The position numbers and the translations under genes are program-made. The notes under the pieces were generated by a model. It worked only from the letters and a program-made list of their open reading frames with translations, was not told the origin of the DNA and made no database searches. Below are positions 2,605 to 10,754 of a DNA stretch of 64,000 bases, one piece after another. Source of the stretch: Candidatus Alistipes faecavium (GTDB lineage: Bacteria; Bacteroidota; Bacteroidia; Bacteroidales; Rikenellaceae); contig DWYP01000046.1 in the NCBI GenBank assembly GCA_019118605.1, positions 1-64,000 of the forward strand, in the 5' to 3' direction. Numbering within the stretch: position 1 is the stretch's first letter; each line of letters opens with the position of its first letter.

Positions 2605-3162
2605 CTACATGATTATAGCCAGGAAACGTACTTTCTTACCGTCGAGGGCCTTCATGCCGTGGGGCAGCGACGAGTCGAAATAGAGGCTGTCGCCGACATT
2701 GAGCACGATCTCCTTGCCGTTGAGCCCGATCAGCAGACGACCCTCGAGCACATAGTTCATCTCCTGCCCGGAGTGGGAGTTCAGGTGCATCGGCACGTCG
2801 TCGGAGGTCGGTTCGACGGTCACGATGAAGGGGTCGATGCGGCGATCGCGGAATCCCGAAGCCAGCGCCTCGTATTTGTAGGCCTTCTGGCGCTCGACCG
2901 ACACCCCCTTGTCGGCTCGGGTGATGAAATAGGCGCTCATCTTGGGTTCTTCGCCGAACATCAGTACGTCGAGGCTGATGTCGTAGCGACGGGCGATAGA
3001 CTGCAGGACATTTACCGAAATATCGCTTTCGGCACGCTCCATGGCCCGGTACTCCTCGAGGGAGATGTGGCAACTTTCGGCCACCTCCTCTTCCGAGAGC
3101 TCGAGGACTTCGCGGAGTCCGCGCAGACGGGTCGCAATCGATTGAATAGGGTCGTCACACAT
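2605..3162 (-). CDS. XRE-family HTH regulator with C-terminal cupin domain
   Basis: N-terminal HTH ([38 protein letters not shown]); C-terminal cupin ([44 protein letters not shown]); 4 nt upstream of the ligase gene. Confidence 0.9.
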
Positions 3163-3338
3163 GGATCGGATATTTTTTGGTTATGGAAACGGTCGGTTCG
3201 TCCCGGCAGCCGGAGTAACGATTCGGAAGCCAGCACAGGCAGACATCTTTCCTCGGGCAATTCCGGGACCGAATAACAACTTGGGCGTAAATATACTAAA
3301 AAACCTTAGAAATTACAATACGCAACAGCAATTCCTCA

Positions 3339-3388
3339 TTCCGGGGAGGGTACTTATATATTATAAGCAGGATAATCCCTTCCCGGAA
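3339..3388. repeat. Nested inverted repeat in the xre/his divergent intergenic region
   Basis: TTCCGGGGAGGG...CCCTTCCCGGAA outer arms (12 bp, one G-U) enclosing CTTATA-TAT-TATAAG. Confidence 0.7.
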
Positions 3389-3471
3389 GCCCTTTTCGGC
3401 CCCTTGGAGACTGACAACAGCCTCCACGCACGGCAAAATAGGGTTCCGGGGAGATTTTTTTCGCTTCGAAT

Positions 3472-3502
3472 TTTGTTTTCTCGCAGAGAAAGACTATATT
3501 TG
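3472..3502 (+). promoter_or_regulatory. Bacteroidota-type promoter for the his operon (TTTG-N19-TATATTTG)
   Basis: TTTG 3472-3475, TATATTTG 3495-3502, exactly 19-bp spacer. Confidence 0.85.
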
Positions 3503-3526
3503 TCCCATACGATACAACAAACCGAC

Positions 3527-3580
3527 ATGACGATTTTCACCCATATCCACCATCACCACCACCACTTCATCGAGGGGTAG
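3527..3580 (+). CDS. hisL: His leader peptide MTIFTHIHHHHHHFIEG (7 His in 17 aa)
   Basis: ATG ACG ATT TTC ACC CAT ATC CAC CAT CAC CAC CAC CAC TTC ATC GAG GGG TAG, about 20 nt after the predicted start of transcription and upstream of hisG. Confidence 0.88.
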   Translation: MTIFTHIHHHHHHFIEG

Positions 3581-3614
3581 GCGATCCTGTATATGGCAAT
3601 CCATGGAATATACG

Positions 3615-3645
3615 AAGCTCATCCCTCTGCGGATGGGCTTTTTTT
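3615..3645 (+). terminator. Attenuator terminator of the his operon
   Basis: AAGCTCATCC-CTCTGC-GGATGGGCTTTTTTT hairpin plus U-tract between leader peptide and hisG. Confidence 0.85.
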
Positions 3646-3693: not shown

Positions 3694-4545
3694 ATGCTGA
3701 AAATAGCGATCCAGGCCAAGGGCCGACTCAATGAACAAAGCATCGAACTGCTCGCCGAAGCGGGAATCCGCGTCGCCGAGAGCAAACGCAAACTCATCTC
3801 GCGGGCCGAAGGTTTCCCGCTCGAGGTGCTCTACCTGCGCGACGACGACATTCCCCAGGCCGTGGCAATGGGTGTCGCCGACCTGGGCATCGTCGGGATG
3901 AACGAAGTGGCCGAAAAGGGCTTCCCGGTCGAGGAGGTCATGCGCCTCGGGTTCGGCGACTGCCGCATCTCGCTCGCCGTGCCCAACACGGTCGACTACC
4001 CGGGCCTTGCGTTTTTCAACGGCAAGCGCGTGGCAACCTCCTATCCCAAAATTCTCTCGCGGTTCTTCGCCGAGCAGGGAATCCAGGCCGAGATCCACAC
4101 CATCGAGGGATCGGTCGAGATAGCCCCGGCCGTGGGCATGGCCGACGCCATCTTCGACATCGTCTCCTCGGGCGGCACGCTCATCTCCAACGGACTGGTC
4201 GAGGTCGAAAAGGTCTTCTATTCGGAATCGGTGCTCATCGCTTCGCCATCGCTCGGCGATGCGGCCCGTCAGGAGATCGGGCAGCTCACCTTCCGTTTCC
4301 GCTCGATTCTCGAGAGCCGCGGCATGAAGTACGTGCTCATGAACCTCCCGAAAGAGCGCCTCGACGAGGCCATCCGCATCCTGCCCGGCATGCGCAGCCC
4401 GACGGTGCTGCCCTTGGCCCAGGAGGGATGGTGTTCGATCCACGCCGTCATCTCGGAAGAACAACTTTGGGAGCGCATCGAACGGCTCAAGGCCATCGGC
4501 GCCGAGGGGATCCTGGTCCTCGCCCTCGAAAACATGATCCGATGA
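3694..4545 (+). CDS. hisG: ATP phosphoribosyltransferase
   Basis: MLKIAIQAKGRLNEQSIELLAEAGI... long-form HisG with C-terminal regulatory domain; first gene of his operon. Confidence 0.95.
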   Translation: MLKIAIQAKGRLNEQSIELLAEAGIRVAESKRKLISRAEGFPLEVLYLRDDDIPQAVAMGVADLGIVGMNEVAEKGFPVEEVMRLGFGDCRISLAVPNTVDYPGLAFFNGKRVATSYPKILSRFFAEQGIQAEIHTIEGSVEIAPAVGMADAIFDIVSSGGTLISNGLVEVEKVFYSESVLIASPSLGDAARQEIGQLTFRFRSILESRGMKYVLMNLPKERLDEAIRILPGMRSPTVLPLAQEGWCSIHAVISEEQLWERIERLKAIGAEGILVLALENMIR

Positions 4546-4564: not shown

Positions 4565-5878
4565 ATGGAGACATTGAAGATATACAACGAGCCCGAACGG
4601 GCCGAATGGGCGGCGCTCACCGAACGCGTCACCCGAGCCGAGGAGGAGATCACACAACAGGTCGCCGCGATCCTCGCGGAGATAAAGGCGGGCGGCGACC
4701 ACGCCCTGCGCGCCATCACACACCGCATCGAGGGTCGTGAAGCCGTCCAGTTCGAAATTCCGGCCACAGTACGCCGCGCTGCCGCCGAGCGGATTCCCGC
4801 GGCGCTGAAAAAGGCGCTCGCCACGGCAAAGACCAACATCGAGGCCTTCCACCGGGCGCAACTGCCCGGGGAGGTGAGCGTCGAGACAATGCCGGGCGTA
4901 CGGTGCGTCCAGCGCGCGCTGCCGATCCGCCGCGTGGGACTCTACGTCCCGGGCGGGAAAGCCCCGCTCTTCTCCACGGTGCTCATGCTGGCCGTTCCGG
5001 CACGTGTCGCCGGATGCCGCGAGGTGATTCTCTGCACCCCAGCCTCGCGCGAAGGCGAGGTCGCACCCGAGATTCTCTATGCCGCCGAGCTGTGCGGTGT
5101 CGACCGCATCTTCGCCGTGGGCGGAGCGCAGGCCGTCGCCGCCATGGCCTACGGCACCGAGAGCATTCCGCGCGTAGACAAGATTTTCGGCCCTGGGAAC
5201 CGCTACGTGACGAAGGCCAAGCAACTGGTCGGCGCCAACGAGGTAGCCGTCGACCTGCCGGCCGGGCCCTCCGAAGTCCTCGTCCTGGCTGACGATACGG
5301 CTTCGCCCGCAGCGGTTGCCGCCGACCTGCTCTCGCAGGCCGAGCACGGCGCCGACAGCCAGGCAGTACTGGTCTGTGCCTCAACGGCCTTCGCCCGCAA
5401 TGTCCAGCGGGCCGTCACCGAACAGCTGAAGGTCCGCCGCCGCGGGGAGATCATCCGCGAGGCGTTGCAGCAAAGCCGCATCATCGTGCTGCCCCGACGC
5501 GCCGACCGCATCGAATTTTCGAACGCCTACGCCCCGGAGCACCTGATCCTCTCGACGGAGGAGCCGTGGAGCGTCGCGGCCGAGATCACCGCCGCCGGAA
5601 GCGTCTTCGTGGGAGCCTGGTCGCCCGAAAGTGCCGGCGACTACGCTTCGGGGACGAACCATACCCTCCCGACGGGCGGCTGGGCACGAGCCTACAGCGG
5701 GGTGAACACCGATTCGTTCCTGCGCAAGATCACCTTCCAGGAATTGACGCGCGAAGGGCTCGAACGGCTGGCCCCGACCATCGTATCGATGGCCGAAGCC
5801 GAGGGGCTCGACGGTCACGCCGCAGCCGTACGCATCCGCCTCGAAGAGGCACAACGGCAGGAAGGAGGTGCGCAATGA
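4565..5878 (+). CDS. hisD: Histidinol dehydrogenase
   Basis: GLYVPGGKAPLFSTVLMLAVPA, GPGNRYVTKAKQLV, GPSEVLVLAD. Confidence 0.97.
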   Translation: METLKIYNEPERAEWAALTERVTRAEEEITQQVAAILAEIKAGGDHALRAITHRIEGREAVQFEIPATVRRAAAERIPAALKKALATAKTNIEAFHRAQLPGEVSVETMPGVRCVQRALPIRRVGLYVPGGKAPLFSTVLMLAVPARVAGCREVILCTPASREGEVAPEILYAAELCGVDRIFAVGGAQAVAAMAYGTESIPRVDKIFGPGNRYVTKAKQLVGANEVAVDLPAGPSEVLVLADDTASPAAVAADLLSQAEHGADSQAVLVCASTAFARNVQRAVTEQLKVRRRGEIIREALQQSRIIVLPRRADRIEFSNAYAPEHLILSTEEPWSVAAEITAAGSVFVGAWSPESAGDYASGTNHTLPTGGWARAYSGVNTDSFLRKITFQELTREGLERLAPTIVSMAEAEGLDGHAAAVRIRLEEAQRQEGGAQ

Positions 5879-6909
5879 GGAGCCTCGACGAACTGGTACG
5901 CCCCAACATCCGGGCGCTGAAACCCTACTCCACGGCCCGCGACGAATACGCCGGCGGGGCAATCTCGACGTGGCTCGATGCCAATGAGAATCCCTATGAC
6001 AACGGTATGAACCGCTACCCCGACCCGCACCAGCGGGAGTTGAAACGGCGGATCGCCCGCCTGAAGGGGGTGCGCGAAGGCCAGATATTTCTGGGAAACG
6101 GCAGTGACGAAGCGATCGACCTCCCCTACCGGATCTTCTGCTCGCCGGGGCGGGACAACGCCGTCTCGATCGCCCCGACCTACGGCATGTACCGCGTGGC
6201 GGCCGACATCAACGACATCGAGATGCGCGAGGTGCCGCTCGGCGACGACTTCGCGCTGCCGGTCGACGCCCTGCTGGCCGCCTGCGACGAACACACGAAG
6301 TTGCTGTGGCTCTGCTCGCCGAACAACCCCACGGGCAACGCCTTCCCGGCGGCCGAGATCGAGCGCCTCGTGCGTGCGTTCGACGGCATGGTCATTCTCG
6401 ACGAGGCCTACATCGATTTCGCCTCGGAACCGGGATTCCTGCCGCGTCTCGACGAGTTCCCGAACCTGATCGTCCTGCAAACCTTCTCCAAAGCGTGGGG
6501 CATGGCGGGCGTGCGTCTCGGTATGGCCTTCGCCTCGGAGCCGGTCGCCAAGCTCATGGCCCGCGTAAAATATCCCTACAACATCAACTGCCTGGCACAG
6601 GCGACAGCAGCCGAGCGCCTCGCATTCGACATCACACCACAGGTGGCGGAACTCCGCTCCGAACGCAGCCGCATGATCGAGGCCCTCGCCACGTGCCGGG
6701 CCATCGAGCGGGTCTACCCTTCGGATGCCAACTTCCTGCTGGTACGCACCCCGGCACCCGACCGGTTGTACAACGCACTGATCGAAGCCGGGGTCATCGT
6801 CCGCAACCGCTCGCACGTGCGGGGCTGCGAAGGATGCCTACGCATCACGATCGGGCGTCCTGAGGAGAACGACCGCATGTTACGAACCGTACAAGATTTC
6901 CGCCCATGA
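5875..6909 (+). CDS. hisC: Histidinol-phosphate aminotransferase
   Basis: [48 protein letters not shown] overlap with hisD. Confidence 0.96.
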
Positions 6910-8033
6910 AAAAAGCCCTCTTCATCGACCGCGACGGCACGATCATCGCGGAACCCGCCGACGAGCAGATCGACAGTCTCGAAAAACTGGCGTTCGTACC
7001 CGGAGCGATCTCGGGGTTGAAGTCCCTCACGGGTCTCGGTTTCGAACTCGTGCTGGCCACGAACCAGGACGGTCTGGGCACGGCGTCGTTTCCCGAAGAG
7101 ACCTTTTGGCCCGCGCACGAAAAAATGCTCGCAACGCTCCGCGGCGAGGGGGTCACCTTCGACGAAGAGCTCATCGACCGCACGTTCGAGCACGACAACG
7201 CCCCGACACGCAAACCCCGCACAGGGATGCTCGCCCGCTACATGGACGGCTCGTACGACCTTTCCGGGAGCTACGTCATCGGCGACCGTGTGACCGACAT
7301 CCTGCTGGCCCGCAACCTCGGGGCGCAAGGCATTCTGCTCCGGCCCGCGGACGAAGGGCGCCGGATGCTGAAGGAGGCCGAAACCTCCGACACCTGTGTC
7401 CTGGTGACCGACTCGTGGAAGGAGGTCGCCGAATTCATCCGTCGCGGGGAACGACGGGTCGAAATTCGGCGCGAGACGCGCGAGACGCAGATCCGCGTGC
7501 GCCTCGACCTTGACGGGCGCGGCGACTTCAACGACCGCATCTCGACCGGGCTGCGCTTTCTGGACCACATGCTCTCGCAGATCGCCCACCACGGCGGCGT
7601 AGCCCTCGAGGTGGAGGCCCGGGGCGACCTCGACATCGACGAGCACCACACGATGGAGGACGTGGCCATCACGCTGGGCGAGGCGATCGACCGCGCTCTG
7701 GGCTCGAAAGCCGGCATTGCCCGTTACGGATTCGCCCTGCCGATGGACGACTGCCGGGCGATGGTGCTCCTCGACTTCGGCGGGCGGATCGACTTCGAGT
7801 GGGAGGCCGAATTCCACCGCGAACGGGTCGGCGACGTCCCCACGGAGATGTTCCGCCACTTCTTCCACGCGCTGTGCTGCGCCGCACGGTGCAACCTCCA
7901 GATCGCGGCCCGCGGCGAAAACGACCACCACAAGGCCGAAGCGATTTTCAAGGCCTTCGCCCGCGCGCTGCGCATGGCCGTAGCGCGGCAAGGATTCGGA
8001 TACGACATACCCAGCAGCAAAGGAGTCCTATGA
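6906..8033 (+). CDS. hisB: Bifunctional histidinol-phosphatase/imidazoleglycerol-phosphate dehydratase
   Basis: N-terminal [13 protein letters not shown]-terminal [34 protein letters not shown]. Confidence 0.97.
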
Positions 8034-8632
8034 TAGCCGTCGTCGATTATGCCACGGGCAACCTGAGATCGGTTGCCGATGCCCTGCACCGTGCCGGGGC
8101 CGAATTTACCCTGACGGCCGATCCCGCGCTGCTGCGCACGGCCGACCGGGTCATCCTGCCCGGCGTCGGCGAGGCCTCGAGCGCCATGGCGAAGCTCCGC
8201 GAACGGGGCCTCGACGCGGTGATTCCCACGCTCTCATGCCCCGTGCTGGGCATCTGCATCGGCATGCAACTGATGTGCCTCACGAGCGAGGAGGGCGACG
8301 CCCGCTGCATGGGTATCTTCCCGACACACGTGCGGCGGCTTGCGGGCGACACGCCGGAGGGCGGGCGGCTGAAGGTGCCCCACGTGGGGTGGAACACGAT
8401 CGAAGGGCTGCAAACGCCCCTCTTCGAAGGGCTTCCGGAGGAGAGTTTCGTCTACTACGTACACTCCTACGCGGCCGAACTCTGTCCGGCGACGATCGCC
8501 ACGACCCGTTACGGCGAGGCGTTCAGTGCGGCACTCGCGCGCGACAACTTCTTCGGCACGCAGTTCCATCCCGAAAAGAGCGGCCCCACCGGAGCAAGGA
8601 TCATTCAGAACTTTCTAAACCTACGTCCATGA
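8030..8632 (+). CDS. hisH: Imidazole glycerol phosphate synthase glutaminase subunit
   Basis: [39 protein letters not shown]; overlaps hisB stop. Confidence 0.96.
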
Positions 8633-9360
8633 ACATCACCATCATACCGGCCACGGACCTGATCGACGGACAGTGCGTGCGCCTGACGCAGGGCGACTAC
8701 GCCAGCAGCAAAACCTATTACCGCGACCCGCTCGAGGCGGCCCTGCGCTTCGAGGAGGCGGGCATCCGCCGCCTCCACATGGTCGACCTCGACGGCGCCA
8801 AGGCCGCAGAGCCGCGGAACCTGCGGGTCCTCGAACGCGTGGCGACGAAGACCTCGCTCGAAGTGCAGTTCGGCGGCGGCATCAAGAGCCGCGAAGCCCT
8901 CGGGAGCGTCTTCAACGCCGGGGCCCGGCGGGCCATCTGCGGCAGCGTGGCGGTGCGAGACCCGGAGGCGTTCGCCGAATGGCTCGAGGAGTTCGGCCCG
9001 GAACGCCTGATCCTCGGCGCCGACCTGCGTGACGGAAAAGTCGCCATCCAGGGATGGCTCGAGGAGTCCTCCATCACCGGTTCGGAACTGATCGGACAAT
9101 TTGCCGCACGGGGACTCACGCAGGCCATCTGCACCGACATCTCGCGCGACGGCATGCTCTGCGGCCCGTCGGCCGCCCTCTACGCGGAGTTGCAACGGCA
9201 GTTCCCCGAGGTGGAGATCACCGTCAGCGGCGGGATTGCGGCGATGGACGACATCCGGGAACTCGACCGGCAGGGATTGCGCAGCGTCATCGTCGGCAAG
9301 GCCCTCTACGAAGGACGTATCACCCTCAACGAAATCGAACGATGCTTGCGAAACGCATAA
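8629..9360 (+). CDS. hisA: ProFAR isomerase
   Basis: [38 protein letters not shown]. Confidence 0.96.
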
Positions 9361-10094
9361 TCCCCTGCCTCGACATCCGCGACGGCCAAACTGTCAAGGG
9401 TATCCATTTCGAGGGGCTGCGACAGGTCGGCGACCCCGTGGAACTGGGGGCGAAATATGCCGCCGAGGGGGCCGACGAACTGGTCTACCTCGACATCAGC
9501 GCCACACACGAAGGACGCCGGACATTCACCGACCTGGTGGCACGCATTGCCGCACGCATCGACATTCCGTTCACCGTGGGCGGCGGCATCGCATCGGTCG
9601 ACGACGCCGGGCGGCTGCTCGACGCCGGGGCCGACAAGATCACACTCAACAGCGCCGCCGTGCGTGAACCGGCACTGATCGACGCCATCGCCTCGAAATA
9701 CGGGTCCCAGTTCGTCGTGGCGGCAATCGACGCCCGCACGGTCGACGGCCGCTGGGTCGTGACGACCCACGGCGGACGCCGCCCCACCGAACGCGAGCTT
9801 TTCACATGGGCCCGGGAGGCCGTCGAACGCGGCGCCGGGGAGATTCTCTTCACCTCGATGGACCACGACGGCACAAAAAACGGTTATCCGTGCGAAACCT
9901 TTGCGCGGCTTGCCGAGTTGCCCGTGCCGATCATCGCCTCGGGAGGCGCCGGAACGGCAGACCACATCGCCGACGTCCTGACCCTCGGGAAGGCCGATGC
10001 AGCCCTGGCGGCCAGCATCTTCCACTACAACGAGATTCCGATCCCCGTGCTGAAGCAGGAGTTGAAACAACGGGGCATCGCCGTCAGACTCTAA
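9342..10094 (+). CDS. hisF: Imidazole glycerol phosphate synthase cyclase subunit
   Basis: [45 protein letters not shown]. Confidence 0.97.
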
Positions 10095-10133
10095 AAAACA
10101 ACGAACATAAAATCACGAAAAAACAGGAAAACC

Positions 10134-10754
10134 ATGAAAATTTCCGGAAAACCCTTCTCGGAACTCGCTACCGAGAAACTCCCCGGCGGACTGGTGCCCG
10201 CCGTCATCCAGGACGCACGCACCCTCCAGGTGCTCATGCTGGGCTACATGAACGAAGAGGCCTACGACAAGAGCCTCGCCGAAGGACGCGTGACCTTCTA
10301 CAGCCGCTCGCGCCAGTGCCTTTGGACGAAGGGAGAGACCAGCGGACACTGGCTCGATATCGTCTCGGTGGCCGCCGACTGCGACAACGACACGCTGCTC
10401 GTGCGCGTCATTCCCCATGGCCCGACGTGCCACACCGGTTCGAAAACCTGCTTCGGAGAGGCCGTACCCGAAACCGAAGGGTTCATCCGTTACCTGCAAA
10501 GCGTCATTCAGGGACGCCATGCCGAAATGCCCGAAGGCTCCTACACCTCGAAACTCTTCACGCGCGGAGTGAACAAAATCGCCCAGAAAGTCGGCGAGGA
10601 GGCCGTCGAAACGGTGATCGAAGCCGTCGCCGGCAACCGCGATGCAATGATCTACGAGGCGTCGGATCTCATCTACCACCTGCTCGTCCTGCTCGAGGCC
10701 ACGGGATGCACGATCGCCGACCTCGAAAAGGAGCTCGCCCGACGCCACTCCTGA
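10134..10754 (+). CDS. hisIE: Bifunctional phosphoribosyl-AMP cyclohydrolase/phosphoribosyl-ATP pyrophosphatase
   Basis: VTFYSRSRQCLWTKGETSGHWLDI; TRGVNKIAQKVGEEAVETVIEA. Confidence 0.96.
   Translation: MKISGKPFSELATEKLPGGLVPAVIQDARTLQVLMLGYMNEEAYDKSLAEGRVTFYSRSRQCLWTKGETSGHWLDIVSVAADCDNDTLLVRVIPHGPTCHTGSKTCFGEAVPETEGFIRYLQSVIQGRHAEMPEGSYTSKLFTRGVNKIAQKVGEEAVETVIEAVAGNRDAMIYEASDLIYHLLVLLEATGCTIADLEKELARRHS

Follow-up and report, generated by a model that had tools for sequence, protein, structure and literature searches.

The region upstream of hisG in Candidatus Alistipes faecavium carries an element which, judged from its sequence and from modelled folds, very probably attenuates transcription of the his operon by a ribosome-mediated mechanism. 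Most likely, this putative RNA switch turns the operon on only when histidine is short. The element is located in the window analysed here, a continuous stretch of 64,000 nucleotides, and precedes a complete his operon, hisGDCBHAF(IE), in which each gene was assigned by NCBIfam models with scores over the cut-off. The leader, the promoter boxes, the terminator and an alternative pairing together with its covariation can be recognized in the sequences themselves; their coordinates are compiled in Table 1.

Table 1. Features of the his operon upstream region in the 64,000-nucleotide window
Feature	Position	Strand	Basis or remark
Divergent gene	2605-3162	minus	other side of the leader region from the his operon
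Bacteroidota-type promoter	3472..3502	+	sequence; TTTG (3472-3475), N19, TATATTTG (3495-3502)
Leader ORF, MTIFTHIHHHHHHFIEG*	3527..3580	+	17 codons, 7 His (codons 6 and 8-13; 3542-3565)
Possible protective hairpin (classical 1:2 stem)	3541..3597, approximate	+	predicted fold; His-codon region with leader end/downstream
Antiterminator 5' arm, GAGGGGUAGGC	3572..3582	+	overlaps the final two sense codons plus the stop (UAG)
Intrinsic terminator	3614..3645	+	11-bp hairpin, 3614-3624 with 3631-3641; T run 3639-3645 (T7)
Antiterminator 3' arm, GCUCAUCCCUC	3617..3627	+	pairing, covariation
hisG, first gene of the operon	3694..4545	+	TIGR00070, 198 bits against a cut-off of 75.75
hisD, hisC, hisB (bifunctional), hisH, hisA, hisF, hisIE	4565..10754	+	NCBIfam matches above cut-off

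A preliminary description of this DNA had proposed a TTTG-N19-TATATTTG promoter, followed after about 20 nt by a 17-codon leader with seven His codons upstream of hisG. Promoter and leader were both found in the sequence and in this order, but the distance has to be corrected, as the leader ATG at 3527 lies 24 nt past the end of the TATATTTG box. The leader ends with a UAG stop codon at 3578-3580. The longer ORF 3161-3580, of which the leader forms the tail, had been regarded as an artefact, and it does begin upstream of the promoter. Besides the leader, neither strand of the 64-kb window contains another short ORF with five or more His within eight codons. No short ORF with five His in eight codons occurred in 20 shuffled windows, of which one strand was scanned. 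Because the leader ORF is unique in 64 kb and no counterpart appeared in the shuffled windows, it is not a product of chance.

The T7 run of the terminator ends approximately 49 nt upstream of the hisG ATG. A hairpin with a U-tract had been noted here before (3615-3645); it is present and slightly larger than described, comprising 11 bp from position 3614. The pairing of GAGGGGT (3572-3578) with 3621-3627, likewise proposed earlier, holds and extends through the stop codon, which results in an antiterminator helix of 10 bp between 3572-3582 and 3617-3627 with one A-C mismatch. Positions 3617-3624 are common to the antiterminator 3' arm and the terminator 5' arm.

The effect of a ribosome on these structures was modelled by folding with forced occupancy, in which the leading edge of the ribosome was assumed to lie 12 nt past the A-site codon's first base, with the polymerase placed at 3627, where the terminator 3' arm is not yet made. 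With the A site at His6 to His11, the full 10-bp antiterminator is predicted (−19.2 kcal/mol including the inner hairpin). The antiterminator has −16.1 kcal/mol with the A site at His12 and −8.6 kcal/mol at His13, and with a ribosome on the stop codon no antiterminator forms and only the terminator is obtained. These models agree with the earlier proposal that stalling on His codons frees GAGGGGT while a ribosome at the stop masks it. When no ribosome is present, the leader is predicted to fold back on itself and the terminator forms. In the full-length RNA, the terminator fold was the minimum-energy structure in every modelled state, and therefore antitermination must be kinetic. His6 and His8-10 are the same in all of ten close relatives, and codons 11-13 are freely replaced by Arg, Cys, Asn or Ser. 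This pattern is expected if stalls count only at the early codons; a codon-position test of synonymous constraint was uninformative.

We infer from this arrangement that ribosome stalling, coupling of ribosome and polymerase, and termination together mediate a response to histidine. Transcription would begin near 3509, and a ribosome on the His-rich leader would trail the RNA polymerase closely. When charged tRNA-His is plentiful, the ribosome would reach the stop codon (3578-3580) and cover the leader end, the terminator 5' arm would then pair with its 3' arm, and transcription would stop near 3645. A shortage of charged tRNA-His would make the ribosome stall at the early His codons and leave 3572-3582 free. 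The free leader end would pair with 3617-3627 before the terminator 3' arm is made, and the polymerase would enter hisGDCBHAFIE.

A set of 80 hisG loci from public genomes was used for comparison with close relatives. Of the 78 scorable HisG rows, including that of the window, 43 had the leader; this count contains L042, L047 and L060, which were judged by eye, and L064, a probable chance ORF. Where enough upstream sequence was available, every Alistipes of the window's own clade had the leader. Its sequence drifts among the relatives (MTIFNHIHHHHNHFPKG, MQFIHIHHHHHHFDQG..., MSNNSHLHHHHHYHPTT, MTRRFIRHHHHDTATEW), and in nearly every case it is followed by a hairpin and a T run, the 5' arm of the hairpin being complementary to the leader end.

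For a survey of the phylum, 80 further hisG upstream regions (40 from the same order, 30 from the class and 10 from the phylum) were searched for short ORFs that begin with ATG and have four or more His within 10 codons. A His leader was detected in 64 of the 80 regions (order 30/40, class 27/30, phylum 7/10), compared with an expectation of 0.1 in 80 from shuffled sequences. The same test for the other 19 amino acids gave at most 11 of 80 (Ile), and none of 20 ilvD upstream regions contained a His ORF. Most regions that lacked the leader also lacked a terminator. Of 98 loci, 78 have the motif TAnnTTTG ahead of the leader ATG, at a median distance of about 19.5 nt; 5.3 would be expected from shuffled sequences. 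These sequence comparisons indicate that the attenuator is not confined to Rikenellaceae and is found in most sampled families of Bacteroidota.

In one family of the same class (f4; L122, L131, L134, L136 and L143), the distance from the His leader to hisG is 67-91 nt; the leader end bears a conserved CATCGCC..GGCGATA hairpin, and no clear terminator is seen. The terminator of this family may be weak, or the family may use a translational version of the element. Such leaders suggest that a version may exist in the phylum in which the alternative pairing gates the hisG start rather than termination. For the window, mainly translational control is nevertheless highly unlikely, since relatives strongly conserve its terminator with T7, which ends about 49 nt upstream of the hisG ATG, and no part of the predicted folds, examined up to 3655, covers the hisG start.

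Transcription attenuation by alternative pairing is further supported by covariation. The duplex formed by the leader end with the terminator 5' arm was evaluated at 98 loci that have both elements, with own and with swapped partners. The sum for the own pairings was −1341 kcal/mol compared with −995 ± 26 kcal/mol for permuted ones, and 0 of 10,000 permutations reached a value as low. For 43 dissimilar representatives, a z of −8.8 was obtained (again 0/10,000), where, as in all such permutations, some effect of shared ancestry is left. Both sides of the pairing differ in sequence between clades. In Alistipes, GGGGUAG faces CUCACCCC; Cryptobacteroides and its kin have AGUGGUAG opposite CUUACCACU, and the class-level families f7 have CUCAAGCG opposite CGUUUGAG. 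At some order-level loci, the own pairing was no better than average.

In an alignment of 26 sequences from Rikenellaceae and allied groups, 98.1% of the pair cells of the terminator were paired, with 27 double-change cells. The antiterminator showed 81.2% paired cells and 16 double-change cells, which none of 500 shuffles exceeded and which lies well above every slid version. Column pair 61:118 of the antiterminator, for example, occurs as GC (13), UA (5), AU (4) and CG (1); column 65:114 is mismatched in 12 of the 26 sequences. The 1:2 hairpin can be assigned more tentatively: 71.6% of its cells are paired and the pairing is position-specific, with covariation within the shuffled range. Covariation analysis of hisG upstream regions in relatives had been suggested in the preliminary description as a check, and the leader, the promoter, the terminator and the pairing of the leader end with the terminator indeed proved to be conserved and covarying. 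That a CAC/CAT-rich stretch and a hairpin unrelated to it came together by chance is thus vanishingly improbable; this reading would have only the shortness of the ORF in its favour and is refuted by the conservation, the enrichment in the survey, the covariation and the uniqueness of the ORF in the window.

The distribution of the leader follows the HisG tree. To account for the leader label on the 81 rows of this tree, 4 changes are needed, compared with 25.7 after shuffling. One supported clade, comprising 34 rows (L023-L081) with labels such as Bacteroidaceae, Prevotellaceae, Muribaculaceae and Barnesiellaceae, contains 32 leaderless rows, one row with a chance-like ORF and one that could not be scored. 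The exceptional ORF, at L064, has no terminator and was judged to have arisen by chance. Muribaculaceae- and Bacteroidaceae-type hisG regions contained no leaders even when any start codon was allowed. In 32 of the 34 rows of this clade, the terminator upstream of hisG is missing too. This mostly joint loss of leaders and terminators bears on the possibility that the terminator is constitutive or responds to a signal other than the leader, such as a protein or a metabolite-binding RNA, and that the His-rich ORF is incidental or only a translated small ORF. Such a reading would fit the terminator being the most stable element, which folds alone in every modelled state, yet it is very unlikely given the joint loss, the specificity of the His enrichment for hisG upstream regions, the covariation of leader ends with terminator arms and zero Rfam riboswitch matches.

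Since leaders occur on both sides of the leaderless clade and in the rest of the phylum, a single loss in the Bacteroidaceae/Prevotellaceae/Muribaculaceae lineage is the simplest reading of a tree which, as a HisG gene tree, may include transfer of hisG. Smaller losses of the leader were found within Rikenellaceae (L041, L061 and L079). On the broader proposal that His attenuation is ancestral for Bacteroidota hisG, was lost once in the lineage named above and represents an undescribed phylum-wide RNA family, we consider the case evenly balanced. If the ancestral reading is true, the covariation would imply that the leading ribosome follows the RNA polymerase closely in a phylum that makes little use of Shine-Dalgarno initiation.

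Ribosome-mediated attenuation of his operons is classical in gammaproteobacteria. With hisL of E. coli and Salmonella (RF00514, His_leader), the element shares a leader with a run of His codons before hisG as the first gene, mutually exclusive antiterminator and terminator structures and the regulatory logic. It differs from hisL in having a Bacteroidota promoter, an antiterminator arm that overlaps the last leader codons and the stop, and a 1:2 hairpin that lacks covariation support. An Rfam scan at the gathering threshold and with E up to 1 yielded only sub-threshold matches for the leaders. The RF00514 model gave no match over threshold in the window and, with E up to 1, nothing close to the leader; the scores of two relatives, 36 and 32.8 bits, fell short of the cut-off of 49. 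The single sub-threshold His_leader match elsewhere in the genome (L162) was dismissed as a strong plain hairpin without a His ORF. The likeness to Thr_leader (RF00506), limited to a codon run and a terminator, is weak (20.6 bits for the window and 39.1 for one relative); this candidate was rejected as well, being under the cut-off of 55 and having the wrong codons and the wrong operon. The Bacteroid-trp RNA motif (RF01692) is regarded as a likely leader-peptide attenuator. It is listed as a cis-regulatory RNA for trp in Bacteroidetes (Weinberg 2010, PMC2864571) and so shares the phylum and the mode of regulation in cis, but differs in its association with Trp genes. It had zero matches in the window genome. 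As RF00514, RF00506 and RF01692 all remained sub-threshold, the element is not a member of these sequence families; by its predicted mechanism, it works like the gammaproteobacterial his attenuator.

Leader-peptide attenuation has been considered in this phylum before. For Flavobacterium psychrophilum, a study from 2021 reported 'strong clues' that amino-acid operons are preceded by leader-peptide attenuators, based on transcription-start mapping and structured 5' regions (PMC9723704). Phylum and mechanism are the same as here, but the main text of that paper names no operons and describes no His leader or covariation. Small ORFs in long 5' UTRs reminiscent of leader peptides were noted in the B. 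thetaiotaomicron transcriptome (PMC7366714), and a 2021 study of Bacteroidota his genes described no leader (PMC8305728). A comparative study of his genes from 2022 assigned T-boxes to Firmicutes and Actinobacteria and attenuators to Proteobacteria and left Bacteroidetes unmentioned (PMC9413887). Some His-leader attenuators in Firmicutes lineages have been predicted by comparison (PMC9413887; PMC2965389); these likewise have a His-rich leader, a terminator and an antiterminator outside Proteobacteria, but occur in another phylum and in scattered lineages. According to our data, a His leader is present in most of the sampled Bacteroidota that have hisG, in most cases with a covarying antiterminator. 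The mechanism itself is known, and the added value apparently lies in the phylum-wide extent and the covariation, which were not found in the literature searched. A 2010 survey by Lopatovskaya et al., cited in PMC4833913, may already contain a prediction of attenuation in Bacteroidetes. The His leaders could provide a ready assay for transcription-translation coupling in Bacteroidota, and the putative attenuator predicts how gut Alistipes tune histidine synthesis. In addition, it supplies apparently unannotated small ORFs and a candidate RNA family for annotation.

The window genome contains hisG, leuA and ilvD. Leaders were also sought upstream of leuA and of aspartokinase, where none was found. 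No chorismate-binding gene (PF00425, TrpE/PabB) was detected in the assembly, which is about 90% complete; possibly, the organism does not synthesize tryptophan from chorismate, or the assembly has a gap. A second candidate leader-peptide attenuator is located upstream of ilvD in the same genome (L167, G000:C12; ilvD match from locus position 1501). It comprises the ORF MTVLNHSNINVINLLLVVLKR*, rich in Ile, Val and Leu, a TATCTTTG box and a terminator, and the sequence GGGAGAAAGGT right after the stop is complementary to ACCTTTCTCCC in the terminator. When the same screen was applied to 19 genomes of this family, it revealed no leader of this type before ilvD, and the candidate may be narrowly distributed or diverged. 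Finally, a contig titled 'Clostridia bacterium isolate AH.B6_2' (L053) carries a Bacteroidota-type hisG with the attenuator and groups with Rikenellaceae-like rows; this contig is probably mislabelled or misbinned.
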